Notes: generated by a model not told the origin, from the sequence alone. A stretch of 64,000 nucleotides of DNA from Tepidanaerobacter acetatoxydans Re1 (GCF_000328765.2 NC_019954.2:1718516-1782515), one strand, 5' to 3'; shown: positions 29,703-64,000, counted from the stretch's first letter. Made by a program: numbers and translations.

Positions 29703-29737
29703 TAAAAATAAAAAAAGACCCTTGCTTTCAGGGTCTA
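29703..29737 (-). terminator. Intrinsic terminator, minus strand
   Basis: AGACCCT pairs with AGGGTCT over a 7-base loop and is followed by seven T and a T-rich tail on the minus strand. It lies between the PTS/PLP locus and the GGDEF gene and ends the long transcript coming from the right. Confidence 0.88.
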
Positions 29738-30011: not shown

Positions 30012-31115
30012 TTATTGTATGTTTAAAATTTCTTTTATTCTGTTAACAATTATTTTTTCTTGACCAGAAAGCAAAGTGCGCGGATCAATGCTTATTATAC
30101 CTAAATTTGCGTAATAATTTCTAATAAAGATTGAAGGTTCGCCCCTTTCTAATTTATTAATAATTTCATCGGTTGAAATTTTTAGTTTCTTTTCATCAAA
30201 CTTTAACTGTGCACGATAAATTTCTCTTCCTGCTTCATCCTGTATAATAGAAGCAGTTATTCCTTGAATATTTTTAAACTGTTCAACTATCCATTTAGCT
30301 TTTTGCAATTCTTCTTGCTTGGTTTCAACTCTGTCATAGTAAATTTCCAATGCTGCAATTAAGCCCATAATCTGTTCCTTACCTACTTTCATTGCTCGAC
30401 CAACACCCAAGTATTGTAGTCGGCAAGCTTCAACTAATTCTTTTTCACCGCAAATAAAGCCTGAAGTTGGCCCACCTATGGCTTTTCCTCCGCTGTATAT
30501 TACAAGATTCGCCCCATTTTGAATATATTTTTTTATATCCTCTTCTGCGGCTGCATCTATGATAACTGGTATATTTTTTTCTCTACCAATTTCAATTATC
30601 TCAGAGGTTGATAGCATCCCTTTTTTAGCAGCATGGTGAGACTTAACGTAAAAAATCGCGGCAGTTTTTTCTGAAATTGACTCTAAAATGTGATCTTTTT
30701 TAACATGGTTTACTTGTCCTACCTCAACTACTCTACCACCTCCCAATCTGATCATCTGAGCTATTGATGCTCCAAAATTAATTAAATGCCCCTTTTGAAT
30801 AATTATCTCGTTGCTCAGTCCTTCACTATATGGTAATCGTTCAATCAAAGTTAAATTCTTTCCAGCTATTAAAGCCGCTGTCGAAATCGCAATACCAGCA
30901 GCCGCCCCTACTGTTGGACATCCATCTTCAGCCGTCGTCATTTCTGCAATAATTTTACCTGCTTTTATTGTTAATTCTTGCATATCAACATAATCTTGAG
31001 CAGCTTCAAACATAGCACGTGCTACCATCGAGTTAAGAGCACTGCCGCCTAAAGCTGTCATTTTCCCGCTTGCATTTATTATCTGTTTTAAACCATATTT
31101 TTGGTAAATATTCAT
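30012..31115 (-). CDS. SelA/DgaE-like PLP-dependent enzyme
   Basis: A 367-residue fold-type I PLP enzyme of the SelA-like group that includes D-glucosaminate-6-phosphate ammonia-lyase (DgaE). Markers are YGLKQIINASGKMTALGGSA at the N-terminus, IPVIIDAAAEED near 183 (PLP-binding Asp187) and YSGGKAIGGPTSG with the Schiff-base Lys211. In dga-type operons such an enzyme removes ammonia from an amino-sugar acid phosphate brought in by a mannose-family PTS. Here no KDPG-type aldolase gene follows, so the substrate may differ. Last gene of the PTS locus. AGGGAGAG precedes the ATG. Confidence 0.8.
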   Translation of the reverse strand: MNIYQKYGLKQIINASGKMTALGGSALNSMVARAMFEAAQDYVDMQELTIKAGKIIAEMTTAEDGCPTVGAAAGIAISTAALIAGKNLTLIERLPYSEGLSNEIIIQKGHLINFGASIAQMIRLGGGRVVEVGQVNHVKKDHILESISEKTAAIFYVKSHHAAKKGMLSTSEIIEIGREKNIPVIIDAAAEEDIKKYIQNGANLVIYSGGKAIGGPTSGFICGEKELVEACRLQYLGVGRAMKVGKEQIMGLIAALEIYYDRVETKQEELQKAKWIVEQFKNIQGITASIIQDEAGREIYRAQLKFDEKKLKISTDEIINKLERGEPSIFIRNYYANLGIISIDPRTLLSGQEKIIVNRIKEILNIQ

Positions 31116-31179
31116 AATTGTATTTCTCTCCCTTATGCCATTGCAGATTTAAGAAATTTAATTTCCTGTGTTACTAATT

Positions 31180-32352
31180 TCAACAAATATTAACAGCAAA
31201 TTCAATCCTTTCCAAGGCAGATTTTAAGATATTCCTCGGACATGCAATATTCATTCTTACAAATCCAGCTCCGTTCTCACCATACATTCGTCCATCATTT
31301 ACAGCTATTTTAGCTTTTTGCACTAAAAAATTATTTAACTGTGAACTATCTACTTTTATATTCCGTAAATCCAACCAGACTAAATAAGCAAATTCAGGCT
31401 CTATCACATTGATATTCGGAATTCTATCCTTGATAAAACATTTCATATATTGCAAGTTTTCGTTAATATATTTCGTAACATTATTCAACCACTCTTCACT
31501 TTCTTCATAAGCAGCTTCTGTCGCAATTACACTAAAAATAGTTCCTCTTTTCAAATGCAGCGATTCAATAAAACTATCATATGCATCAAACAAATTTTTA
31601 TTCGGAATAATCATATATGCTGTGTGTATACCCGCTAAATTAAACGGCTTACTTAGCGAAGTACAGGTAATACAATTTTGGGCAAAATCTTCACAAATTG
31701 ATGCATAGGGGGTATATTCAATGTTGGGATATGTTAGGTCTGCATAAGCTTGATCGCAAATTACAATTACATTGTGCTTCAAGCATATCCTACCCAATTC
31801 CGTCAGTTCTGACCTTGTCCATACACGGCCGACCGGATTATGCGGATTTGAGATAATTAACATTTTTGTTTTGGGATCTTGCGCTTTCTTTTCCAAGTCT
31901 AAAAAATCCATATGGTATTTTTGTTCCTTAAAAATCAATGGATTAGTTACGACTTTTCTTTCGCTTTTCTTGATTATATTGGAAAAATTATCATAAACTG
32001 GTGGCTGTATAATAATATTATCTCCGGGTTGAGTAAGTGCTCGAATAGCAAACCCAATTGATGGAATAATGCGAGAAGCAATACCTATCCATTCTCTTTT
32101 AATTTCCCAATTATATCTTTTTCTCATCCAATTTATTATTGCATTGTAATAGGTCTCAGGTCTCCTAATATTTCCATAAACTCCAAATTCGACAACTTCC
32201 ATAAGTCTATCTATCACAGGTTGCGGAGCTTTAAAATCCATATCGGCTACCCATAGCGGAATTAAGTCCTCGCTACCGAACTTCTCCTTAAGACCATACC
32301 ACTTTTCAGAACTATACTGTTTTGCATTATCTACGTAGTCAAATTCATACAT
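31180..32352 (-). CDS. MalY/PatB-type PLP aminotransferase or C-S lyase
   Basis: A 390-residue fold-type I PLP enzyme. It starts with FDYVDNAKQYSSEKWYG and has LWVADMDFKAPQPV near 33, SNPHNPVGRVW near 168, ICDQAYADLTY near 198 and TSLSKPFNLAGI with Lys235 as the PLP lysine. The N-terminal signature is that of MalY/PatB, which have cystathionine beta-lyase activity; some members act as aminotransferases. Its place inside a PTS locus suggests it acts on an amino compound released after uptake. Start ATG with AGAGG upstream. Confidence 0.85.
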   Translation of the reverse strand: MYEFDYVDNAKQYSSEKWYGLKEKFGSEDLIPLWVADMDFKAPQPVIDRLMEVVEFGVYGNIRRPETYYNAIINWMRKRYNWEIKREWIGIASRIIPSIGFAIRALTQPGDNIIIQPPVYDNFSNIIKKSERKVVTNPLIFKEQKYHMDFLDLEKKAQDPKTKMLIISNPHNPVGRVWTRSELTELGRICLKHNVIVICDQAYADLTYPNIEYTPYASICEDFAQNCITCTSLSKPFNLAGIHTAYMIIPNKNLFDAYDSFIESLHLKRGTIFSVIATEAAYEESEEWLNNVTKYINENLQYMKCFIKDRIPNINVIEPEFAYLVWLDLRNIKVDSSQLNNFLVQKAKIAVNDGRMYGENGAGFVRMNIACPRNILKSALERIEFAVNIC

Positions 32353-32558
32353 AATTTTAAAACCTCTGCTTTCATTAACAATGTTATAGTCTTTTAAGTT
32401 ACATCTTAGCCAGGTTAATTATAATTTACGACGCAAAAACCTTTATTATTTAACGTAAAATTAATAATGTCCTTTTTATAGAGCAAGCAATACATAAATG
32501 TTTTATGGAAAAACTAACTTTTTACAGTGGAATCAATTATAATTTCACATTGATTTTT

Positions 32559-33056
32559 CTATAACTCAGAATTATCTAGAGCATCTTTTAGACTTACCTT
32601 CTTGGTATCAGGCAGTGTCTGGAATGTCACTTCTATGCCATAATTTTGATTTAATTCCCTTAGGATGTCAGCATCAAGCTTCGTCAAAGCAACACTAGGA
32701 ATTATAAACGTAGAATCAGCTTTCTTTGCAATACCTCCAATATTTAATTTTTGTATTGGCAAGCCTTTATTTACTGTTTCTTTTACCGTTGAAATATTTT
32801 TAAACAACAAAATTACCTTATATCGCCAGAATTTATTTTCTTCCCAACTTTTTATTGCCTCATCAACACTCATTACTTTAATTGTTAAACCGTAAGCTCC
32901 TGCTGACATTTCATACACACTTTTCATAAGCGGGTCCTTCGAAATTGAATTATCTATCACAAAAATAGCATTGCAATTTAATCCCTTAGACCATTTTGTC
33001 ATAACTTGACCATGAATTAATCTATCATCCACTCGTGCCAAAACTATTTCTCCCAT
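32559..33056 (-). CDS. PTS mannose/sorbose-family IIB component
   Basis: A 165-residue IIB protein of the mannose family. LARVDDRLIHGQVMTKW gives the phospho-accepting His15. IIB takes phosphate from IIA and gives it to the sugar during import through IIC/IID. This is one of two IIB genes in the locus; the other is at 37028-37501. It sits 206 bases upstream of the MalY-like gene and about 315 bases downstream of the IIC-IID gene. GGAGGATTG precedes the ATG. Confidence 0.92.
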   Translation of the reverse strand: MGEIVLARVDDRLIHGQVMTKWSKGLNCNAIFVIDNSISKDPLMKSVYEMSAGAYGLTIKVMSVDEAIKSWEENKFWRYKVILLFKNISTVKETVNKGLPIQKLNIGGIAKKADSTFIIPSVALTKLDADILRELNQNYGIEVTFQTLPDTKKVSLKDALDNSEL

Positions 33057-33371
33057 TTAAAATCAATCCTCCAATATAATAGATTTTTGTTATTATCACT
33101 AGCTTATCTAGAGTTATAAAAATAATCCGTTTGACATCGGTTAATTTACCTTTCCACAATATTGTACCTCATAAACACAGTGCTTTTAGTTTTTAACTGT
33201 TTGCTAAACTTTTTTAATGATCCTTTACATAAATTCGTCGCTGCTGCTCCCAACTATATATTGTTATGAACGGAAAAGCATGTTAGTACTGATGATTAAT
33301 TAGTCATCAGTACTAACAACAAAGTTGCTTCTAAGCAAAAAACTTTATAAGGCTTTCCACCTTAGATAGCA
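33057..33371. other. Intergenic region inside the PTS locus
   Basis: A gap of 315 bases between the IIC-IID and IIB genes on the minus strand. Its only clear structure is the 14 bp palindrome at 33282-33317. No open frame or sigma-54 box is seen. Confidence 0.5.
33282..33317. repeat. Perfect 14 bp palindrome between IIC-IID and IIB genes
   Basis: GTTAGTACTGATGA and TCATCAGTACTAAC face each other across an 8-base loop. On the minus strand no T-run follows, so it is probably not a full terminator. In a transcript it would form a strong hairpin and could protect the 3' end of the upstream message or mark a processing point that lowers expression of later genes. Confidence 0.75.
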
Positions 33372-35030
33372 TTAAAGTATATTCAATAACCCTAATATAG
33401 CTAAAATGATTACTAAGCTAATAAGCACTTTTAACACATTTAATTCTTTTCTATCAAAGTAGAGATATATAATTATTACTGTCGCTAACGGCAATAGTCC
33501 TGGAAATATGCTATCCAATATACCCTGAAGTTCAAAAGTCTTGCCTGAAATAGTCCAGCTTAAAGGAGTTGTAACATCAACATAAGAGGCAGTTAATACA
33601 CCCATCATAAAGAGTCCCAATATCGATAGTCCGGTAAGTATATACCTCATGCTCTTGCCACCAAGAATTGTGGTAGCTGCATGAATTCCTAGTTTGTATC
33701 CCATCTTGAGGAAGTAAAAACCATAAAAGTAATTTCCTATAATCCATATCAGCCACGGAAGGATTCCACCTAAAAAGTTGCCCGCACTTGCCAAAGGAAG
33801 AAATAAAGCAATTAAAATATACTGAATTGTGCCTTCTTCTATTGAGTCTCCTAAAGCCGCAAATGGTCCCATCAAACTAACTTTTGTGCTGTTTATTACC
33901 TCTTCGCTTACTGCTTCATCCTTTCTTCCTTCAGACAATGCTCTTGCTCTTTGTTCTTCCAGCGAAAGGGTCATTCCAACAATTGGCGCACCGCCAATGC
34001 ATTCAGTATTGAAGAATTGCGAGTGTCGCTCATATGCCTCACTTAAATCTTCTTTGCTCTTATACAGTTTTTTTAAGCCTGGTATCAACGACCATAGAAA
34101 AGAAAATGCAATCATTCTATCGAAAGTATGAGGAATTTCGTTTGCATATCTCCATCTAAGCCAGATTTTGCGAAGATCTCTATCTGTAAATTGACCTTCA
34201 CCTGCACTATTGGCATCCTTTGCTATATCATTTTCTTCTAGCTCTCCACTAATTTCCCCTTCTTTTTCCATTATAACTAGCACATATAAGTAAGAAATTA
34301 TTGCCCCTAAAATTGCAAAAGTTATAATATTAATTTCTAATGACTGTAAAATTATAACTAGAAAATACGCTAGCAAGAAGAAAGGCATTAAACTCTTCTT
34401 TCCAATCATTTTAAGCGTAACAGCAATTCCTACTGCAGGAAGTGCTCCTCCAATAACTTCTAATGCATGTATAGTACGTCCTGACATAAGTTTTACAACT
34501 TCAGTTATTAAAGGAACTCCTTTGTAAAGTGTAATAAACATTGCCGGAAAGAATATCGCAAATCCCAAGATTATAGGTAGAAAAATAGAAGCAAAAGTTA
34601 TACCCCTCTCATCTGCTTGCTTTACATATTTATCAACTAATGGTGTTACAACAACCGTGTTTAAAAAGAATCTAAGCTGATAAAGATATGAACCTAAAAG
34701 TCCTACAGGTATTGCTACTGTAACTGCTTCTGTTGGCTTTAGACCTGATAAAATTGCTACAGGAACTGCTACTGCAGCAGCTACCGCAGGCTCACTTGGT
34801 GTAGAACCGCCAGGAGAAATAACTCCCATGTAGATCAATTGAATTGCCGCAGTAACCATCATTGCATTAGGCACATCGCCCAAAACAATGCCTACAATCA
34901 ATCCCGTCATCAAAGGGCTATATCTAAAGGCAGTTGAAGAATAACCTGTACTACGCGTCATGACGATGGAAATCCATAAAGATATTAAAGCTGATTGCAT
35001 AATAGTCAAAGTAACTGCTTGTGCTTGCAT
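33372..35030 (-). CDS. PTS mannose-family IIC-IID fusion permease
   Basis: A 552-residue protein joining two membrane components usually encoded apart. Residues 1 to about 255 form the IIC part (many helices, GVISPGGSTPSEPAVAAAVA near 70). A polar linker rich in Glu and Asp lies at about 256-285. The IID part follows (DLRKIWLRWRYANEI, HSQFFNTECIGGAPIVGM near 340-355, GPFAALGDSIEEGTIQ near 400) and ends in several helices. Together they form the sugar channel. The start is the ATG of MQAQAVTL, seven bases from GGGAGGG; an earlier ATG nine codons upstream has no such site. Confidence 0.92.
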   Translation of the reverse strand: MQAQAVTLTIMQSALISLWISIVMTRSTGYSSTAFRYSPLMTGLIVGIVLGDVPNAMMVTAAIQLIYMGVISPGGSTPSEPAVAAAVAVPVAILSGLKPTEAVTVAIPVGLLGSYLYQLRFFLNTVVVTPLVDKYVKQADERGITFASIFLPIILGFAIFFPAMFITLYKGVPLITEVVKLMSGRTIHALEVIGGALPAVGIAVTLKMIGKKSLMPFFLLAYFLVIILQSLEINIITFAILGAIISYLYVLVIMEKEGEISGELEENDIAKDANSAGEGQFTDRDLRKIWLRWRYANEIPHTFDRMIAFSFLWSLIPGLKKLYKSKEDLSEAYERHSQFFNTECIGGAPIVGMTLSLEEQRARALSEGRKDEAVSEEVINSTKVSLMGPFAALGDSIEEGTIQYILIALFLPLASAGNFLGGILPWLIWIIGNYFYGFYFLKMGYKLGIHAATTILGGKSMRYILTGLSILGLFMMGVLTASYVDVTTPLSWTISGKTFELQGILDSIFPGLLPLATVIIIYLYFDRKELNVLKVLISLVIILAILGLLNIL

Positions 35031-35218
35031 TATTATACCCTCCCTATGTTTATTCATTGATTTTAGCTAGAATCATACATAAGCATACTATTTCTTTACA
35101 CATATATACGCTAAATATTCAAAAAGTGGAAATTACAAAATTTCTAGTTTGATTAGTTTATGATTTTAGGATTACATAATTTTACATGTGAGCAGCAGAT
35201 AATATTTATTTGTATATT

Positions 35219-36376
35219 TTACACTTCAAACTTCCTTCGTAATTCTAAAAACTTCTTTGTTCCTATGCCCATTTCGATATCATTATAGCCTAAGTCTTTT
35301 AGGGTACATTCTAGTGCTGAAATCGCTACAAGTAAGTCATTTGAATTGATATATCCCATATGGCTAATCCTAAAAGCCTTTCCTTTGAGATTTCCTTGAG
35401 CAGAAGCAATTTCAACTCCGTAACGCTCTCTCATCATGCTTATTATGTCATTTGCGTTTATTCCTTTAGGCGCATATATTCCAGTAAGACCTGGTGAAGC
35501 ATCCGCATCGTTCGCCACCAATTCTAATCCAATTTCCTTTAATGCAGTTCTTACTAAGTTTCGATAGATTAAGTGTCGTTTATAAATATTTTCATATCCT
35601 TCTTCTTGTATCATCTTAAGAGCCTCGCTTAGACCAAGAAAGGTAGAAACTGGAAATGTTGTAAATGATTGGTTAATATCTGCGTTCTTTTTTATGCTCT
35701 TTACATCAAAATAGTAAGTTTCATTTTCTTTTTTCATAGCATATTCCACTGCTCTTTTGCTGGCGGCTACAATCCCGATTCCAGGTGGGCTCATCAACCC
35801 TTTCTGTGAAGCACCAATAAGAACATCAATACCCCAATTATCTATATCAATTTCAGTAACTCCAATTGAACTTACAGCATCAACAATAATAAAACAATCT
35901 GACATTTTTTTTATTCTTGATGAAATTTGTTTTATATCGTTTATGGTAGTAGCAGAGGTTTCATTATGTGCTATAAAAACAGCTTTTACATCAGAATTCG
36001 ATATTAATACCTCTGTTATTTCTTCAGGCTGCACAGCTCTTCCCCATTCAACTTTCAGTCTTAATGCATTTCTTCCGCGAGCAACATTCATCATATAAAA
36101 ACGTTCTCCGAAAATTCCAGTATCTACAACAAGTACTTTGTCGCCTTTACTGGTAAAATTATCTACAGAAAGTTCCATCGCACCAGTTCCTGAAGATGGA
36201 ATAAGATAAACATCTCCGCTGCAATTAATTAATTCTTTGAGTGCAATCATCGCTTTTTGAAACATTTCTTTAAAGCGTGGACCCCTATGATTAATTATTG
36301 GCTGAGTCATAGCTGAAATCACGCGTGGTGGAAGCGGTGTAGGGCCTGGAATTAGTAAAAACTCCTTATCGATCAT
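35219..36376 (-). CDS. Class V aminotransferase (alanine-glyoxylate / serine-pyruvate type)
   Basis: A 385-residue fold-type I PLP enzyme. LIPGPTPLPPRV at the N-terminus, PSSGTGAMELS near 60, IIVDAVSSIG near 163 (Asp166) and IGASQKGLMSPPG with the PLP Lys192 match the alanine-glyoxylate/serine-pyruvate/AEP transaminase group. Third PLP enzyme of the PTS locus, between IIA and the IIC-IID permease, so it most likely acts on the imported amino compound or its breakdown product. AGAGGG precedes the ATG. Confidence 0.85.
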   Translation of the reverse strand: MIDKEFLLIPGPTPLPPRVISAMTQPIINHRGPRFKEMFQKAMIALKELINCSGDVYLIPSSGTGAMELSVDNFTSKGDKVLVVDTGIFGERFYMMNVARGRNALRLKVEWGRAVQPEEITEVLISNSDVKAVFIAHNETSATTINDIKQISSRIKKMSDCFIIVDAVSSIGVTEIDIDNWGIDVLIGASQKGLMSPPGIGIVAASKRAVEYAMKKENETYYFDVKSIKKNADINQSFTTFPVSTFLGLSEALKMIQEEGYENIYKRHLIYRNLVRTALKEIGLELVANDADASPGLTGIYAPKGINANDIISMMRERYGVEIASAQGNLKGKAFRISHMGYINSNDLLVAISALECTLKDLGYNDIEMGIGTKKFLELRRKFEV

Positions 36377-36572
36377 TTATTTTCCCTCTCACTTTCTATA
36401 TTTTGTTAAATAATTTTTTATTTTTCTAGTATTTCTCGTAAATTCATTGCATTTTTAAAGAATGTTAGAAATAACATGGTAAGTTACTTAATACATAGTT
36501 GAAACATTGATTATCCGCGTGAATTTTAAAAAGCACTTCAGCGATAACAGTATTTTTCTTAAGAATCTTTAA

Positions 36573-37031
36573 TTATTTCATGAGATACTTAGATTCTCGT
36601 AATATTTTACCTATATTCTTACAATTTTCAGTTGCCTTTTCTATTAGCTTTTCTGATAACTCTTCACCTTTATATTTTGTCCTATACTCATTGGCCTCAA
36701 TAAGCATCGCAATATTTAAACCCGATAAAGCTATTACATCATATTTGGCTGAAATTGCTGCTGCTATATTAGATGTAGTACCTCGAAATAAATCAGCGAT
36801 TATGATACTGCCTTTTGGTGCAGTCTTCACGACTGATTCAATATTAACCATATAGTCATTAGTCGATTGAGCTGGCTGTAATGGAAACGCATAAACATTT
36901 TTTAAAGTGCCACATATCATTTCTGCACTCTTAATTAATTCTTGACCCCAATTACCGTGCGTAAGTAAAATAATATATGGCAAATTTTCTTTTTCTAAAA
37001 TAAACTCACATCCTCTCTTAAAAGATTTCAA
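36573..37031 (-). CDS. PTS mannose-family IIA component (second copy)
   Basis: A 152-residue IIA domain protein. IILLTHGNWGQELIKSAE carries the phospho-accepting His25, and IIADLFRGTTSNIAAA near 78 is the second family motif. The start is uncertain: a TTG overlapping the upstream IIB stop by four bases is open and in frame, while family members begin only a few residues before the ILLTHG strand. GAGAGGATG lies inside the frame and could serve a rarer internal start. It adds a second IIA to the locus. Confidence 0.85.
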   Translation of the reverse strand: MKSFKRGCEFILEKENLPYIILLTHGNWGQELIKSAEMICGTLKNVYAFPLQPAQSTNDYMVNIESVVKTAPKGSIIIADLFRGTTSNIAAAISAKYDVIALSGLNIAMLIEANEYRTKYKGEELSEKLIEKATENCKNIGKILRESKYLMK

Positions 37032-37501
37032 ATCACATCATAAATAAGAATCGGTAAACTATCAGGCACCATTTGAACAATAATCGGAACAGCTTTCTCT
37101 CTAAAGTATTCAATAGCATCTATATCTTCATCTGATAAAAAAACATTTTGATGAATCTTTTTCTTTCCTGGTCCTGAAGGTATCCTACCGATATTTATTT
37201 CTTTAATTTTCACCCCCTTTTGATGCATAAATTTTACTAGATATAAATTTTTAAGTAAGATAATTGCTTTGTCATTCGATTCACTTGCATTTAGAGTTTC
37301 TACTGCTTCATATATGTCATAGATTTCGAGGTTAACATTTTGTGGAACAGTCATACTTAAAAAATTTCCCATTATTGGATCTTTGCATAGTTCATTATCG
37401 ACTATTATAATTTTGTTAGCATTTTTAGCTTGGAGCCATTTAATTATTATTTGACCATGCACAAGTCGCTCGTCCACTCTTACCATGGTAATATCTGCCA
37501 T
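37028..37501 (-). CDS. PTS mannose/sorbose-family IIB component (first copy)
   Basis: A 157-residue IIB. MADITMVRVDERLVHGQII gives the active His15; the rest (IIIVDNELCKDPIMG, INIGRIPSGPGKK) is typical. The ATG two codons into the open frame is chosen since AGGAGG lies eight bases before it. It follows IIA with a 12-base gap and overlaps the second IIA gene, so the three are one translational group. Confidence 0.92.
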   Translation of the reverse strand: MADITMVRVDERLVHGQIIIKWLQAKNANKIIIVDNELCKDPIMGNFLSMTVPQNVNLEIYDIYEAVETLNASESNDKAIILLKNLYLVKFMHQKGVKIKEINIGRIPSGPGKKKIHQNVFLSDEDIDAIEYFREKAVPIIVQMVPDSLPILIYDVI

Positions 37502-37513
37502 TCTCAATGCCTC

Positions 37514-37933
37514 CTAAGCACTATTGCTTTTTTCTTTTAACTCAAGCTTAATATTTTTAATTCCGAAAATTCCTGTTTGGATAATTTTGTCTATAATACA
37601 CTCTAAATCTGTAGTATTTCTCAAGTCCAAAGCCTCTATAAGCATTGGTAAATTAACTCCCGAAATACTTTCGACCTTAATATTATTTTCTTTCATGGCT
37701 GCAGCAGTTACATTGGATGGACTGCCACCAAAAAGATCTGTTAAAATTAAAACTCCTTCTCCCCTATCCAACTTTTTAAGTGAATCCTTAACTTTCTTAT
37801 ATAACTCTTCAACACTATCTCCATGTTCAAGGCCTAAAGTTTCAATATTTTCCTGTCTTCCTACAATAAGCTCAGCACTTCTTAAAAGCTCCTTTCCAAA
37901 ATTGCTGTGAGTTACTATCAATATTCCTAGCAT
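37514..37933 (-). CDS. PTS mannose-family IIA component (first copy)
   Basis: A 139-residue IIA. GILIVTHSNFGKELL carries the phospho-accepting His9 and ILTDLFGGSPSNVTAA near 63 is the second motif. It accepts phosphate from HPr. It is the first gene behind the sigma-54 promoter at 37999-38015, with GGGAGG seven bases before its ATG. Confidence 0.93.
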   Translation of the reverse strand: MLGILIVTHSNFGKELLRSAELIVGRQENIETLGLEHGDSVEELYKKVKDSLKKLDRGEGVLILTDLFGGSPSNVTAAAMKENNIKVESISGVNLPMLIEALDLRNTTDLECIIDKIIQTGIFGIKNIKLELKEKSNSA

Positions 37934-37998
37934 AAATTATCCTCCCAATCCTAAGTAAATTAAATGCAACCTTAAACATATTATAAAGTAATTTATAG

Positions 37999-38015
37999 AG
38001 CAATATTCATGCCAA
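37999..38015 (-). promoter_or_regulatory. Sigma-54 (-24/-12) promoter of the PTS operon
   Basis: On the minus strand TTGGCATGAATATTGCT matches the sigma-54 consensus: TGGCA at -24 and TTGC at -12 with the right spacing. It lies about 66 bases upstream of the first IIA gene and downstream of a LevR-type activator gene that carries the sigma-54 contact motif GAFTGA. Confidence 0.88.
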
Positions 38016-38029
38016 TATAATTGTGTCAA

Positions 38030-38080
38030 AATTATAAAAGCAAAGAGAATTTTGCGCTACTCGCTACCTTCTCTTTGCTT
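38030..38080 (-). terminator. Probable terminator after the LevR-type regulator
   Basis: AGCAAAGAGAA and TTCTCTTTGCT form a perfect 11 bp stem with a 19-base loop; on the minus strand CTTTTATAATTTT follows. It lies between the regulator stop and the sigma-54 promoter, so it separates the two units. Confidence 0.7.
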
Positions 38081-38147
38081 TCATGGGTTTGAAGCATAAC
38101 AATATGTTATTCTAATATGATTAATTAAAATGCAAAGCTCAAGTGTG

Positions 38148-40994
38148 CTATTGTGTGTCAAGCAAGTCTATTATATACCCTATTTCTGTGTCAGGAACGG
38201 TAATGCCAAATGCTTCTTCAATGTTTGCTAGAGATAATTTCACTTTTTCATATATACTCATCTTTTTTTGTATTAATTCATCAATGTTGTTATACGGTAA
38301 TATATCATTTTGAATAAGCCTTTCTATCATACAGCAATTGTGAAAAATGTATCTAGATTTAATTCTGGCAGAATCCTTTATACCTAACAATTTTATTGTT
38401 GCAGTATATGAATCATTAACCACATTATATGCTTTTATAGGATTTAGAAAAGTAAGTAATTCTTCCAACATATTAATGAATACGTTTTCTTCCGATTGTT
38501 TTTTACTTTTTATATAGTTGTTCGAACCAGTAATACTTTTTTCCAGTTTCCTAACTCCATCTCCTATTATTAGTTCATCTATTGGGATAAAAGGAACTTG
38601 TGGTATATGCAAATCTACTGTTCCAACTACAGCTATTACATCGTCGTAACCATTTTTATCTAAGATATTATCCAAGTTTTCAGCTTTATTTACTGGTTGT
38701 ATCTTGACATTATATTCATCCACAAAATTTAAAGTGTTTTTTAAAAGTTGTGCAATTTTTACAGCAGCACCCATGCCTGAAATACATGTAGTAAGTATTG
38801 TTTTTGAAGATGAAATATTAACTCTGTTTTTAATATCTCCACTAATTATTCTTCCGATATATGGGTTTGCTCTATTTAGATCTTCAACAAGAACTGATAA
38901 GGTCATTTCTGGCAATAGGCTTTTTCTTACAGCTTCTATTACTATTGGGGTAGAAATATTCTCTATGGATTTAGTTAAAACATTTGCTTTCTGAGTAATA
39001 ATCTCTGCAAAAGCAGTAAGGGATCCCATATCCACCAGCAATAATACTCCTTTTCCTTCATCTACTTTTTTAACCATTTCTATAGTTTTTTCTAATGCAT
39101 TGTCTACTTTCATATCAAGTGGCATGTCAATTGCTTTGCAATGTTCCGTAGCAAGCAAGGTATTGGCAACATCAGCAATACTAGTAGCTGTTGCCTCTCC
39201 ATGAGCTAAAACTATAACTCCAATTTTGCTGTAATCATCACCTGTATCAACAGCACTTAAAAACATAGTTAGGAAACCAATTTCGCCTGTCGGTATGCTG
39301 ATTCCTAACTCTTGCTGCAAAACTTCTCTAATCATTTTGGCCACCTTAAACTCGCTCGGATTATTTAAAGCAATTTTATTTATTTCTTCATAATAAATTA
39401 GGCTTTTGTCAGCTATCCTTTCCATCAAAGCACTTATATGCATAGCAAGACCTATTATAGCTCTATTGCTGAAATGTTTATTTAATTTTTGTTCCGCAAG
39501 TATCAATGCTGTCTCCGCAGCATTATATACCTTCGGATTTATAATTTTAAATAATTCATTTTTATCCAACAAGGCCTTTTCTGTATTATGATCATATTTC
39601 TTTAAGAGTTTTTTTAAATATTTTATTATATCATTATTTATGATTTCGCTGATTTTATCATTTGAAAAGCCTATATTTAGATAATGATTATACTTTTTAG
39701 TTATTTCTTTATACAAATTATCAGATACATCAAAGCTGTTCAAGTTAATAGTTTCTGCTAACTTTTTATCGTCAGGTTTGTATATATAATAGTCTTTGCC
39801 GTACTCTAATAGCTCAAAAACTTCACTGTAATCTTTGTGTCTGCTTAGTAAGCCACTGTATATATGTTCCGGCAAAAGATGAATATTTATTTCAATCTCC
39901 TTTTTATTATAGGTTTTATAATCTAAGAATCCTCTCGCACATAGAAGCTGTATATCACCTTTAAGTTGCCCGATATTTCCGTAGCAGTCATAAAGCAAAA
40001 AAGCTCTAATTACATCCTTGTGTATTCTAATTGGCACTTTAACATTACTTGCCTCGCTCATAAAAAAAGTTTCTATGAATTCTAATCTTTCATTAAGAGG
40101 TCTATCCTCCAAAGATGGAAGATTTATTGTCATTGGAATTCTCCGCAAAAAAGTTTGCAAAAGTACTGAATTTAAATTTTCTGTGGTAGCTCCAATTATT
40201 AATATGCTTGCAGTATGGTATTTATCTGTTTCTCCTAGTCTTCTGTATATACCCTTATCCATAAGTAGAAACAACATTTCTTGTGCTTCAGGTGGCAGCC
40301 TGTGAATTTCGTCAAGCAATAATATACCCCCATCAGCACTTTCAATAAGGCCGGCTTTATCTTGATTTGCACCTGTAAAAGCTCCTTTAACATAACCGAA
40401 TAACTGTGATAAAATTAATTGGGGATTATCGGCATATTCAGAGCAATTAAATACTATAAGTTCGGCATCTTTTGAAATATTTCCATTATATATTGCATAT
40501 TGATACATTACTTCCGCGAATGTAGTCTTGCCTACACCCGTTGGCCCTGTTATTAACGTATGAAGTCCTCTTGGAGGGTATAATATAGCTGCTTTCGCTT
40601 GTTTTATTGCCAGTTCTAAACTACCTGTTTCTCCAATTATTCTTGCAAAAGGATCGTTTTCTTTTGTATTCAATTCATCATTAGCAAAATTGGTATTATG
40701 CAAAAAATTATTTACGTCTTCTATTACCCCATCACCTTCATACTTTATTTGCAAAATTTCTTCTAGGCAAGATTTTGCAAAAAACTTTACAGGCCTTCCA
40801 ATAATTTTGATAGCCTTGTTTTCTCTTACTAATTCGTTTAATTCTCTACTTACATTGCTTCTATCGATTTCAGTGACTTTAGAAATAGTTTCTGCATCAA
40901 ATCCAAAACTTAGGTCTTCTGCAATTTTTGCTGCTGATACGTCAGATGACAAATTCTTTAAAGCTATAAAAACTTTTTCCTTTCTAGTCATCAT
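38148..40994 (-). CDS. LevR/DgaR-type sigma-54 activator with PRD and PTS domains
   Basis: A 948-residue activator. Order: winged HTH (1-90, AETISKVTEIDRSNVSREL), AAA+ domain (about 105-340; Walker A GPTGVGKT, sigma-54 contact KGAFTGANQDK, Walker B GGILLLDEIHRLP), PRD1 (about 460-570, AIIGLAMHISALMERI), a mannose-type IIA domain (about 580-700, IGVIVLAHGEATAT), a IIB-like domain (about 720-810, TTCISGMGAAVKIAQ) and PRD2 (to the end, IFHNCCMIERLI). It should activate the adjacent operon when the PTS is busy. AGGAGAG precedes two adjacent ATGs; the second is equally likely. Confidence 0.93.
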   Translation of the reverse strand: MMTRKEKVFIALKNLSSDVSAAKIAEDLSFGFDAETISKVTEIDRSNVSRELNELVRENKAIKIIGRPVKFFAKSCLEEILQIKYEGDGVIEDVNNFLHNTNFANDELNTKENDPFARIIGETGSLELAIKQAKAAILYPPRGLHTLITGPTGVGKTTFAEVMYQYAIYNGNISKDAELIVFNCSEYADNPQLILSQLFGYVKGAFTGANQDKAGLIESADGGILLLDEIHRLPPEAQEMLFLLMDKGIYRRLGETDKYHTASILIIGATTENLNSVLLQTFLRRIPMTINLPSLEDRPLNERLEFIETFFMSEASNVKVPIRIHKDVIRAFLLYDCYGNIGQLKGDIQLLCARGFLDYKTYNKKEIEINIHLLPEHIYSGLLSRHKDYSEVFELLEYGKDYYIYKPDDKKLAETINLNSFDVSDNLYKEITKKYNHYLNIGFSNDKISEIINNDIIKYLKKLLKKYDHNTEKALLDKNELFKIINPKVYNAAETALILAEQKLNKHFSNRAIIGLAMHISALMERIADKSLIYYEEINKIALNNPSEFKVAKMIREVLQQELGISIPTGEIGFLTMFLSAVDTGDDYSKIGVIVLAHGEATATSIADVANTLLATEHCKAIDMPLDMKVDNALEKTIEMVKKVDEGKGVLLLVDMGSLTAFAEIITQKANVLTKSIENISTPIVIEAVRKSLLPEMTLSVLVEDLNRANPYIGRIISGDIKNRVNISSSKTILTTCISGMGAAVKIAQLLKNTLNFVDEYNVKIQPVNKAENLDNILDKNGYDDVIAVVGTVDLHIPQVPFIPIDELIIGDGVRKLEKSITGSNNYIKSKKQSEENVFINMLEELLTFLNPIKAYNVVNDSYTATIKLLGIKDSARIKSRYIFHNCCMIERLIQNDILPYNNIDELIQKKMSIYEKVKLSLANIEEAFGITVPDTEIGYIIDLLDTQ

Positions 40995-49019: not shown

Positions 49020-49619
49020 CTATTTTAGCAGCAAAGCAGTGATTACGCCAATAGTTCCGATTAATATAGCTATTACGGAACCAACTGCCCATTTATTTAA
49101 AGCATCGAATTTGTCCTCTATTCTGTCAAATCTTTCGTCTACTTTATCAAACCTTTCATCTACTTTATCAAACCTTGCGTCTACTTTATCAAACCTTGCA
49201 TCGGTTTTATCGGATAGATCTTTGATTTCCTTATGAACCATATCAAATTTTGCATCGGTTTCCTTACGGTTGGCTTCAAACTTAGTATCGGTTTTATCGG
49301 ATAAATCTTTGATTTCTTTATGAACTGCTTCAAACTTAGCGTCAACCTTATCAAACCTCGAATCCATTTCTTTTTTCATAGACTCAAACTTTGCGTCTAT
49401 TTTATCGAACCTAGCATCGGTTTTGTCGGATAGATCCTTGATTTCCTTCCGGACTGCCTCAAACTTGACATCTACTCTGTCAAATTTTGCATCCATGCGG
49501 TCTTTCAGGTCATTTATTTGCTGTGACAGATAAAAATATCCGGATTCAAAAATCTTGGGCTCGTGAGTTTCATTTGGCCGCTGTTCATCATTACCGGCCG
49601 CAATTTCTTTTTCCGCCAT
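49020..49619 (-). CDS. Heptad-repeat coiled-coil protein with C-terminal membrane anchor
   Basis: A 199-residue protein. After a short polar N-terminus, residues about 35-170 are a long run of 7- and 11-residue repeats of the type DARFDKVD and KEIKDLSDKT, with DNA-level tandem copies of 21 bases. Residues about 174-198 form one membrane helix (AVGSVIAILIGTIGVITALLL). This layout is like DUF1640/Bdr-type tail-anchored coiled coils. The ATG of MAEKEIAAG has GGAGGGG upstream; ATG two codons earlier is possible. Repeat number may vary between strains. Confidence 0.8.
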   Translation of the reverse strand: MAEKEIAAGNDEQRPNETHEPKIFESGYFYLSQQINDLKDRMDAKFDRVDVKFEAVRKEIKDLSDKTDARFDKIDAKFESMKKEMDSRFDKVDAKFEAVHKEIKDLSDKTDTKFEANRKETDAKFDMVHKEIKDLSDKTDARFDKVDARFDKVDERFDKVDERFDRIEDKFDALNKWAVGSVIAILIGTIGVITALLLK

Positions 49620-49717
49620 ACTCATCACCCCTCCTCCTTCTGCTTAAAATTATTATACCATGAATAACCGCAATTTTCCATAAAGACCCTCCATTTTTCT
49701 GTTTTTTTAAAACCGAC

Positions 49718-61089: not shown

Positions 61090-61992
61090 TTATTTAGCTA
61101 AACCGCCCAATGCCTGCCTTATATGGCCGTCATTATCCTTTAGCAGTTGGCGGGCCGTATCCTTATCGCTTTGAGTCAAAAGCATCATAATAGCCAATTT
61201 CACATCATAATCTGTTTCATTTAAAGTCTTTTCTACTTCAATATCGGAAGCACCTGTAGCAATCTTTACAATGCGTTTTGCCCTTTCCACCAGCTTCTCA
61301 TTGGTTGCCTGTACATCCACCATAAGGTTGCTATAGACCTTGCCTAATTTAATCATAACACCGGTAGAAATCATGTTGAGCACCAGTTTCTGAGCTGTTC
61401 CTGCTTTCATGCGGGTAGAACCCATAACCGCTTCAGGTCCTACAATCGGTGTTATCATAATATCCGAGTATTGCTGCATAGGACTATTATTAGTACAACA
61501 TACACCTATAGTTAGTGCCCCTTTATTATTTGAGAATTTCAAAGCACCTAAAACATATGGAGTTCTGCCGCTGGCTGCCAAACCTACCACCGCATCCTTT
61601 GAGCTAAGATTCTTTGCCTTTAGATCTGTTTCTCCTGCTTCAAAATCATCTTCCACCCCCTCGGCTGCACGGCGTATGGCTGTATCACCGCCGGCAATTA
61701 TACCCTGTACCATCTCATGAGATACCCCGTAAGTAGGAGGACATTCAGAAGCGTCTAAAATCCCCAGTCTTCCACTTGTTCCTGCGCCTATATAAATCAA
61801 CCTTCCACCTTTTCTTAACCGGTGTGCTATACTTTCAACAGCTTCTGCTATATGTGGTATTTCTTTTTCTACCGCAAAAGGTACTGTTTTATCCTGATCG
61901 TTTATTTTTTTCAGCATGGTTTTGGTATCTAATGTATCTATATCTAATGTATCAAGATTTCTTTCTTCAGTAATAAGTTCTGAAAGATTCAT
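61090..61992 (-). CDS. murQ: N-acetylmuramic acid 6-phosphate etherase
   Basis: A 300-residue SIS-domain etherase. [22 protein letters not shown] near 58-79, [19 protein letters not shown] near 80-98, [13 protein letters not shown] near 139 and [19 protein letters not shown] near 192 are diagnostic. It splits MurNAc-6-phosphate to GlcNAc-6-phosphate and lactate in wall recycling. It is the last gene of an operon with a GNAT protein and mannose-type PTS parts. AAGGAAC precedes the ATG. Confidence 0.95.
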
Positions 61993-62098
61993 TACTTGAG
62001 TTCCTTTCTAAATCGAAATTTTTTACCCGGTTTTATTTCGGCAGCTAAAAGGCCGCTGAGTCAGCATTGCGTAAGCATTGCCTTGAGATTTCTTCTAT

Positions 62099-63037
62099 TT
62101 AGAGCGTTTTATCATAATCTATAAATGTTCTGAATACCTGAACACCATGCCGTTCATAGAATCGTCTTCCGGGGACATCTGTGGAAACAAAATAGAGATG
62201 GTAGATTCCTCTTTTTGTCATCTCCGCCTGCATGAAGTCAAACAGGATTCCTCCCAAGCCATAATTTCTAACCTTTTCACTTATTCCAATCGGCCCAAAT
62301 CTCATCGGATTTCCGTCGATCATTCTCATGCAGAAGCCGCAAATATTTTTATCTTTGTCTAAAACCAGAAGAATACAGTCTTCTGCAAGGTTGTTCTGCA
62401 TGCTTATAAGTGCATTCCTTTTCCATCCTCCGCCAAATTCTTTTTTTGCAAATTCAAGTAAGTCAAGTGCATAACTGTAATCGAAGTTAATGATGGAAAA
62501 TCCTTGATTTTGAGCTTCCCTGTACTTTTCCATGGTCTCTTCACTGATAGTATAGCCGTGAAGGTCTTTTTTCATGGAAAAATTCATCTCTCCACTCTTG
62601 TAGCCATGTTTTTCAAAAAAGGATATGGAAGATGGATAGTTCTCCTCGTCTAAACCCGGAAAGAAGTAACTTGGACTGTATGCACCCAAAGTAATTGTCT
62701 TACAGCCCAGTTCTCTAAGAGCATTCTCGGCTTTCATGAGAAGTTTTCCTCCCACACCTCTTCTTTGATAATTTTCATCAACAAACATGACATTTACCCA
62801 GCCTCTTGTGGGTTCCAGGCCCCTTTCGAGATACGGGAATTTCCGTTTCATTGCCAACAGAAATCCAATGACTTGTTCATCTTCCAATGCTATATAACAC
62901 AAGTTGGAATCAAAATTGTCATCAAAAATTACCTGCTTTCTGAATTTTAATGCAGTTAGGGTATCTGCTTTCAATATCTTGTTCCAAAGAGTTATAACAT
63001 CTTGTTCATATCGTTGTTCATAATTGATAATCTTCAT
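62099..63037 (-). CDS. Two-domain GNAT acetyltransferase
   Basis: A 312-residue protein with two GNAT domains. The first (about 1-155) has VMFVDENYQRRGVGGKLL near 90, the acetyl-CoA loop RRGVGG. The second (about 160-312) has a weaker loop near KVRNYGLGGILFDFM, residues 265-280. The substrate is unknown; next to murQ and PTS genes it may act on an amino sugar or wall fragment. The ATG with GAGGAGG five bases upstream is the start. Confidence 0.82.
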   Translation of the reverse strand: MKIINYEQRYEQDVITLWNKILKADTLTALKFRKQVIFDDNFDSNLCYIALEDEQVIGFLLAMKRKFPYLERGLEPTRGWVNVMFVDENYQRRGVGGKLLMKAENALRELGCKTITLGAYSPSYFFPGLDEENYPSSISFFEKHGYKSGEMNFSMKKDLHGYTISEETMEKYREAQNQGFSIINFDYSYALDLLEFAKKEFGGGWKRNALISMQNNLAEDCILLVLDKDKNICGFCMRMIDGNPMRFGPIGISEKVRNYGLGGILFDFMQAEMTKRGIYHLYFVSTDVPGRRFYERHGVQVFRTFIDYDKTL

Positions 63038-63167
63038 TGAATCCTCCTCGTATAATAAAGTCATAGTTTAAAAACTATATTTCTTTTCTATCTCACTATT
63101 CTTGTGAGATAATAATTGTACAGATAGAGGTCGTAGTTTTCCTCCTTGTTGGTTGACTTTAATCCTT

Positions 63168-63557
63168 TTATTCTTCCGGAAACATTTTTACAGAATCCTT
63201 TGTTGTCTCCACACTTCTCTTTGCCAATTCTTCCAAGCTCAGTTCCGAAGGCATAGCTAATTCCACATAAGCCATAGTGTTGATTCCGGTTACCAGCATG
63301 TATCTTCCCGGATTGGCCATGCACTTCATGGCTGCCACTCTAAAAGGAGATGCGCCAAAGAGGTCGCAAGAGAAAAGTATATCTTCATCTCCAATCTTTT
63401 CCAAAAGAGCATCCAGATTGGTTTCCAGAGTATCTAAATCACTTTCGGGATCAAGGTCAAGAAAGTGCATGTACTCAGGCACTCCCGAAAGCATATTAAG
63501 GTTCTTTCTTATTCCTTCGGCATATCCTCCATGGCCTATTACAATGATATTGATCAT
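63168..63557 (-). CDS. PTS mannose-family IIA component
   Basis: A 129-residue IIA protein. INIIVIGHGGYAEGI gives the phospho-accepting His near residue 9, and LFSCDLFGASPFRVAA near 60 is the second motif. Start ATG with AAGGAG eight bases upstream. It follows the IID gene by 76 bases in a second Man-type PTS operon, whose earlier genes lie beyond the window, and probably feeds sugar to MurQ or related enzymes. Confidence 0.9.
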   Translation of the reverse strand: MINIIVIGHGGYAEGIRKNLNMLSGVPEYMHFLDLDPESDLDTLETNLDALLEKIGDEDILFSCDLFGASPFRVAAMKCMANPGRYMLVTGINTMAYVELAMPSELSLEELAKRSVETTKDSVKMFPEE

Positions 63558-63633
63558 TTCTTCTTCTCCTTCTGTGTTTTTCAAATATGAATTCGACTTC
63601 GTTCATTGTTAATAAATATTTCTTCTGTATATC

Positions 63634-64000
63634 TCATGCATAAAAACCTGTCCAGTAGCCTAATGCCGTAAGAACTGCTGCCAATGCAAGGATTAATCCC
63701 ATCAGTTTAAGCGGAGACCATTTTTTCTTAGAGTAAAGATAATACACTGCAAGTGTCAGAGATAATGGTAAAAGTTTAGGAAAAATACTGTTTATCATAT
63801 TATCTGCATTGAATATCACCTGATTCGGTATCACGGTATTGGTTGTAGCATCATAGATATCTCTTACGATTTGAATAGGCAGCGGCATATTTACGAAAGA
63901 AGCCGTAAGAGCTCCGACGACAATTAACCCAAGAACAGTCATGGCATCGGTAAGTTTGTTAAGAGTTCCGTCGGCCATAAAAGTCTGCATGCCTTCAAGG
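63634..64000 (-). CDS. PTS mannose-family IID component, partial
   Basis: The last 122 residues of a IID permease, open to the window edge. Visible are DGTLNKLTDAMTVLGLIVVGALTASFV, then INSIFPKLLPLSLTLAVYYL and a final helix, as in the C-terminal end of IID proteins. The 5' part is outside the window. With IIA just downstream it belongs to the second PTS operon. Confidence 0.9.
   Translation of the reverse strand, partial: LEGMQTFMADGTLNKLTDAMTVLGLIVVGALTASFVNMPLPIQIVRDIYDATTNTVIPNQVIFNADNMINSIFPKLLPLSLTLAVYYLYSKKKWSPLKLMGLILALAAVLTALGYWTGFYA

Follow-up and report, generated by a model that had tools for sequence, protein, structure and literature searches.

In Salmonella, D-glucosaminate is served by a mannose-family PTS under the LevR-type activator DgaR (PMC4987338), and the dgaABCDEF operon joins this transporter and its sigma-54 activator with a DgaE-family lyase. 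Two other described arrangements are the gfr operon for fructoselysine and glucoselysine, which has deglycase genes, and the DUF4310/DUF4311-type operons (i.e., of the EF_0830–EF_0839 type), which hold DgaE, DgaF, and an amidohydrolase but are without a mannose-family PTS.

The operon compared here with these systems lies on the minus strand of a 64,000-nucleotide stretch of Tepidanaerobacter acetatoxydans Re1 DNA that was analysed as a whole (hereafter the window; positions 1718516–1782515 of a single 2,761,252-base contig). Like the Salmonella dga system, it unites a LevR-type sigma-54 activator, a mannose-family PTS, and a DgaE-family lyase, but it has no DgaF, its IIC and IID are fused, it contains two IIA and two IIB genes, and it adds a MalY-like enzyme and a class V aminotransferase, which brings its PLP enzyme genes to three. 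The reading we favour, and to which we give about an even chance, is that of a dga-like catabolic unit for D-glucosaminate or a 2-amino-2-deoxy sugar acid close to it, which would be broken down via 2-keto-3-deoxy-6-phosphogluconate (KDPG) and aldol cleavage. A rare PTS operon would thereby gain a concrete substrate class, the 2-amino-2-deoxy sugar acids, in a bacterium that probably belongs to the syntrophic acetate oxidisers among biogas bacteria. Moreover, the comparison singles out a group of mannose-family transporters as a probable sugar-acid clade, and a branch of the MalY family whose active site has been rebuilt.

Layout and control of the operon

Just upstream of the operon lies the gene for a LevR/DgaR-type sigma-54 activator (38148–40994, minus strand, like the genes and signals of the operon itself), with an AAA domain, PRD domains, and an EIIA-man domain (Pfam Sigma54_activat, PRD, and EIIA-man), whose best NCBIfam model is DgaR at a score (620.6 bits) under the cut-off of 1400. 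Between this gene and the promoter, an inverted repeat with 31-nt arms that are 77% complementary (38026–38092) probably ends the activator transcript, i.e., serves as the activator's terminator. The sigma-54 promoter, TGGCATGAATATTGCT (38014–37999), matches TGGCAYN5TTGCW exactly, and the window holds two such exact matches versus a mean of 0.24 per shuffled window. Each of the five related operons that were examined has a site of this form in the same place, ahead of its first IIA gene, so that six operons share it when that of the window is counted. The second exact match in the window (39120–39135) runs antisense within the LevR gene and is probably due to chance. A sigma-54 gene is present in the genome, and enzyme I has been reported for T. 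acetatoxydans Re1 (PMC4374699).

Downstream of the promoter follow the first PTS IIA gene (37514–37933; PF03610), the first IIB gene (37028–37507; PF03830), and the second IIA gene (36573–37031; PF03610). The gene for the class V aminotransferase (35219–36376; PF00266) precedes that of the IIC-IID fusion (33372–35057), in which PF03609 and PF03613 are matched in one frame, and for which comparison with Tepidanaerobacter sp. GT38 makes a start at 35030 likelier than one at 35057. The second IIB gene (32559–33056; PF03830), the MalY/PatB-family gene (31180–32352), and the gene for the SelA-like, DgaE-family ammonia lyase (30012–31115) complete the operon. Every part listed for this locus in the preliminary description (i.e., the promoter, two IIA, two IIB, one IIC-IID fusion, and three PLP enzymes, all on one strand) was confirmed, and its remark that neither an aldolase nor a deglycase is encoded in the operon agrees with the profile matches of the nine proteins.

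Two hairpins accompany these genes. The one 3′ of the IIC-IID gene (33281–33318) has the stem GTTAGTACTG/CAGTACTAAC, which recurs with a different loop at the same position in GT38 (L031, 11211–11250); since only a single copy exists in each genome, a genome-wide repeat was rejected. The other, a terminator-like hairpin with a T run 3′ of the lyase gene (29716–29736), is weak when taken alone, because four such sites were found in the region against 5.0 expected by chance.

Conservation of the PLP genes and relatives of the transporter

In GT38, the nearest named relative, the gene order is LevR, IIA, IIB, aminotransferase, IIC-IID, IIA, IIB, MalY-like, and DgaE-like, and the core of the operon is 75 to 80% identical to that of the window (aminotransferase 77%, IIC-IID 79–80%, second IIB 75%, MalY-like enzyme 75%, and lyase 78%). 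A transporter-alignment scan of 84,980 species genomes, which used two short peptide patterns that distant members may have escaped, yielded 24 relatives, and comparison of their neighbourhoods, as the preliminary description had proposed, left GT38 as the only one with all three PLP genes. Judged by this shared order and identity, the three PLP genes are a conserved unit that belongs with the PTS operon, as had been assumed from the start.

Identity at the front of the operon is far below that of the core (LevR 45%, first IIA 41%, and first IIB 35%). Since the front in GT38 is instead 56–70% identical to the front of Thermoanaerobacter-type operons, the front module of the window (LevR, IIA, IIB, and second IIA; 36573–40994) has, compared with GT38, probably been swapped out, without the core being broken up. 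The second IIA proteins of the two operons are only 31% identical and differently placed (that of GT38 is encoded between IIC-IID and IIB), so on sequence and position the window's second IIA is not the counterpart of that in GT38; no match to a remnant of the latter was found in the 315-nt gap between the IIC-IID and second IIB genes of the window.

In the transporter tree, the window and GT38 proteins pair with support of 100/99, and the group to which they belong is distinct from ManYZ and AgaCD of E. coli, with several of the internal branchings left open. Of the nearest relatives, five operons were annotated, namely those of genome G013, Thermoanaerobacter wiegelii, Thermoanaerobacterium, Propionispora, and Fonticella, whose PTS proteins are 53–57% identical to those of the window. 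All five encode 2-hydroxyacid dehydrogenases (that of Thermoanaerobacterium, when scanned, was of the Ldh_2 family), all except Fonticella encode a KDPG aldolase, and 6-phosphogluconate-dehydrogenase-like proteins occur in G013, Propionispora, and Fonticella. Because the transporter is paired with 2-hydroxyacid dehydrogenases in these relatives, and in four of them with a KDPG aldolase as well, gene context and tree together indicate that this mannose-family PTS clade probably serves sugar acids. The LevR-PTS operons of T. wiegelii, Thermoanaerobacterium, and G013 resemble that of the window in their transporter (same clade, 57% identity), their IIA-IIB-IIC-IID-IIA-IIB layout, and their sigma-54 site, but carry 2-hydroxyacid dehydrogenases and KDPG aldolase in place of its PLP enzymes. 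Across the clade, loci L032, L055, L056, L062, L065, L067, and L073 combine a mannose-family PTS with 2-hydroxyacid dehydrogenases, often together with KDPG aldolase or 6-phosphogluconate-dehydrogenase-like genes.

The three PLP enzymes

The lyase scores 464 bits against the DgaE family model TIGR01437 (cut-off 385) and 419 bits against the stricter DgaE equivalog NF047797 (cut-off 600), and is 42% identical to the D-glucosaminate-6-P ammonia lyase (DGL) of Salmonella. By alignment, it conserves the DGL residues H162, H163, K213 (the PLP lysine), R301, R332, and R346. The catalytic and phosphate-contacting roles of these residues have been described, the phosphate contacts from docking, in a study that numbers the PLP lysine 217, although it is residue 213 when counted along the chain sequence (PMC9529869). 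At position 226, both operons with the PLP trio have Glu or Gln where 16 relatives have Lys or Arg, which is a possible hint at an altered substrate; since the placement of Arg226 near the substrate carboxylate rests on docking (PMC9529869), little weight was given to this change. Otherwise, nearly no position conserved in the family has been lost.

Besides that of GT38, the closest relatives of the lyase are 80% identical and come from two genomes of another family, G395 and G270 (L103, 9095–10210, and L104, 9321–10436), where the gene adjoins that of the DgaF aldolase in a DUF4310-type operon. The four proteins form one clade in the lyase tree (100/99), and such identity across families suggests gene transfer. 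A role as selenocysteine synthase (SelA) was rejected, as the lyase scores 78.4 bits against TIGR00474 (cut-off 267.9). It is the only substantial SelA-like gene product in the genome, the one other stretch reaching 20.9 bits, and we infer that TepRe1_1692, which has been listed as a predicted selenocysteine synthase without SelB (PMC4374699), is the lyase gene of this operon. The published annotation is then probably wrong, and such a misannotation would explain why a selenocysteine synthase was predicted in the absence of SelB.

The MalY-like protein shares with MalY/PatB C-S lyases the PLP lysine (K235), D200, Y120, and a family score (TIGR04350, 431 bits) above the cut-off of 340, but differs, in the window and GT38 alike, by Y61N, C168S, E201Q, I202A, H203Y, and T236P. 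Among 49 family members taken across the whole score range, Y61, C168, E201, H203, and T236 are present in 46 to 49. The name 'MalY-like enzyme' used in the preliminary description thus holds for family membership but not for a standard MalY/PatB active site. Judging from these residues and from the separate branch that the two proteins form (100/100), the window and GT38 mark a MalY-family lineage with a rebuilt active site, and because near-invariant residues have been lost, the enzyme is probably no ordinary C-S lyase. An Asp-x-x-Tyr arrangement is the pattern of aspartate aminotransferase. Since the enzyme matches this pattern, a transaminase- or racemase-like role appears from its residues to be as likely as a C-S lyase role, and racemase activity has been described for one relative of MalY (PMC5845896). 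The genome encodes two more PatB-family proteins.

The class V aminotransferase, of alanine/serine-glyoxylate type, appears to belong to a separate subfamily. Its closest alignments are to enzymes of the serine- and alanine-glyoxylate types, its best solved relative is 2dr1, and it scores under all equivalog cut-offs (BhcA 273 of 650 bits, PhnW-AepZ 169 of 361, and pyridoxamine-pyruvate 195 of 600). No relative more than 44% identical turned up among 398 genomes sampled from the phylum (GT38 not being one of them), plasmids gave nothing above 36%, and 299 G395 relatives, a set that lacked a positive control, produced no hit at the threshold chosen.

Candidate route and alternative readings

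In the favoured dga-like route, the PTS would import D-glucosaminate, or another 2-amino-2-deoxy sugar acid closely related to it as isomer or derivative, and phosphorylate it at C6, after which the DgaE-like lyase would remove water and ammonia to give KDPG or an isomer. DgaF (TIGR03581) is absent from the window genome and from GT38, but both genomes encode a KDPG aldolase (PF01081) adjoining a KDG kinase. The known DGL reaction yields KDPG, so this aldolase, whose gene lies about 140 kb away from the operon in the window genome, could finish the route by splitting KDPG into pyruvate and glyceraldehyde-3-phosphate, and its presence elsewhere in both genomes makes the missing operon aldolase a weak objection. 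The MalY-like enzyme and the aminotransferase might perhaps handle a second form of the substrate (e.g., with the other configuration at C2, or a C3-substituted acid), or else might transfer the amino group, with pyruvate or glyoxylate as acceptor.

The core of this route (a PTS for a 2-amino-2-deoxy sugar acid, a DgaE-type lyase, and a KDPG aldolase) is supported by sequence and gene context, namely by the conservation of the trio in GT38, the shared sigma-54 site, the sugar-acid context of the PTS, the DGL residues, and the DgaF-linked relatives of the lyase. Counting against it are the score of the lyase under the equivalog cut-off, its changed position 226, and the lack of DgaF. Moreover, the KDPG aldolase gene sits in a separate cluster, so that its joint expression with the operon is an assumption, and the MalY-like enzyme and aminotransferase are superfluous to the route, yet both are conserved. 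The preliminary description had assigned the operon no known substrate, which now seems too cautious, given that a concrete candidate can be named in D-glucosaminate or a closely related isomer. Of the imports that it had proposed, the amino sugar acid agrees with the retained DgaE-type active site and the sugar-acid PTS clade, while the amino acid-sugar adduct fails for want of a deglycase among the nine proteins. The three PLP steps in series that it had envisaged lack direct support.

A serial arrangement can still be entertained tentatively, with a substituted or isomeric amino sugar acid, imported by the PTS, being processed along a route not described so far. A new MalY-derived enzyme with an aminotransferase-like Tyr203 and without Tyr61, an aminotransferase representing a new class V subfamily, and a lyase of DgaE type would then act in sequence to yield a 2-keto-3-deoxy sugar acid phosphate. 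That all three enzymes are strictly needed in series, for instance for an ether or thioether at C3, is doubtful. Here, the MalY-like enzyme would expel the substituent or change C2, and the lyase and aminotransferase would complete a 2-keto sugar acid phosphate, in keeping with the joint retention of the three genes in both genomes that have them, with the rebuilding of the MalY-like enzyme at family-fixed positions and the change at position 226 of the lyase in both, and with the isolation of the aminotransferase within its phylum. However, substrate and reaction order are purely hypothetical in this scheme, and the remainder of the lyase resembles an ordinary DgaE.

We consider it unlikely that the PTS imports a plain sugar acid (of the gluconate or 2-ketogluconate type) and that the PLP genes, although co-regulated with it, have a separate part in nitrogen or sulphur metabolism. 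While the nearest transporter relatives do accompany dehydrogenases for non-amino sugar acids, the operon has none of these and a DgaE-type lyase in their place, and its PLP genes are interleaved with the PTS genes in both genomes. Processing of an Amadori-type amino acid-sugar adduct, as by Salmonella gfr, which has the same class of regulator and PTS (PMC4987338), is very improbable and was rejected, since deglycase and SIS-domain models match none of the nine proteins.

Finally, two other features of the window were observed at a distance from the operon. A protein encoded at 49020–49628 consists of repeated DARFDKIDAKFE-like units and a C-terminal hydrophobic stretch, and a further set of mannose-family PTS genes, together with genes for a MurQ-like etherase and an acetyltransferase, occupies 61090–64000 and runs off the window end.
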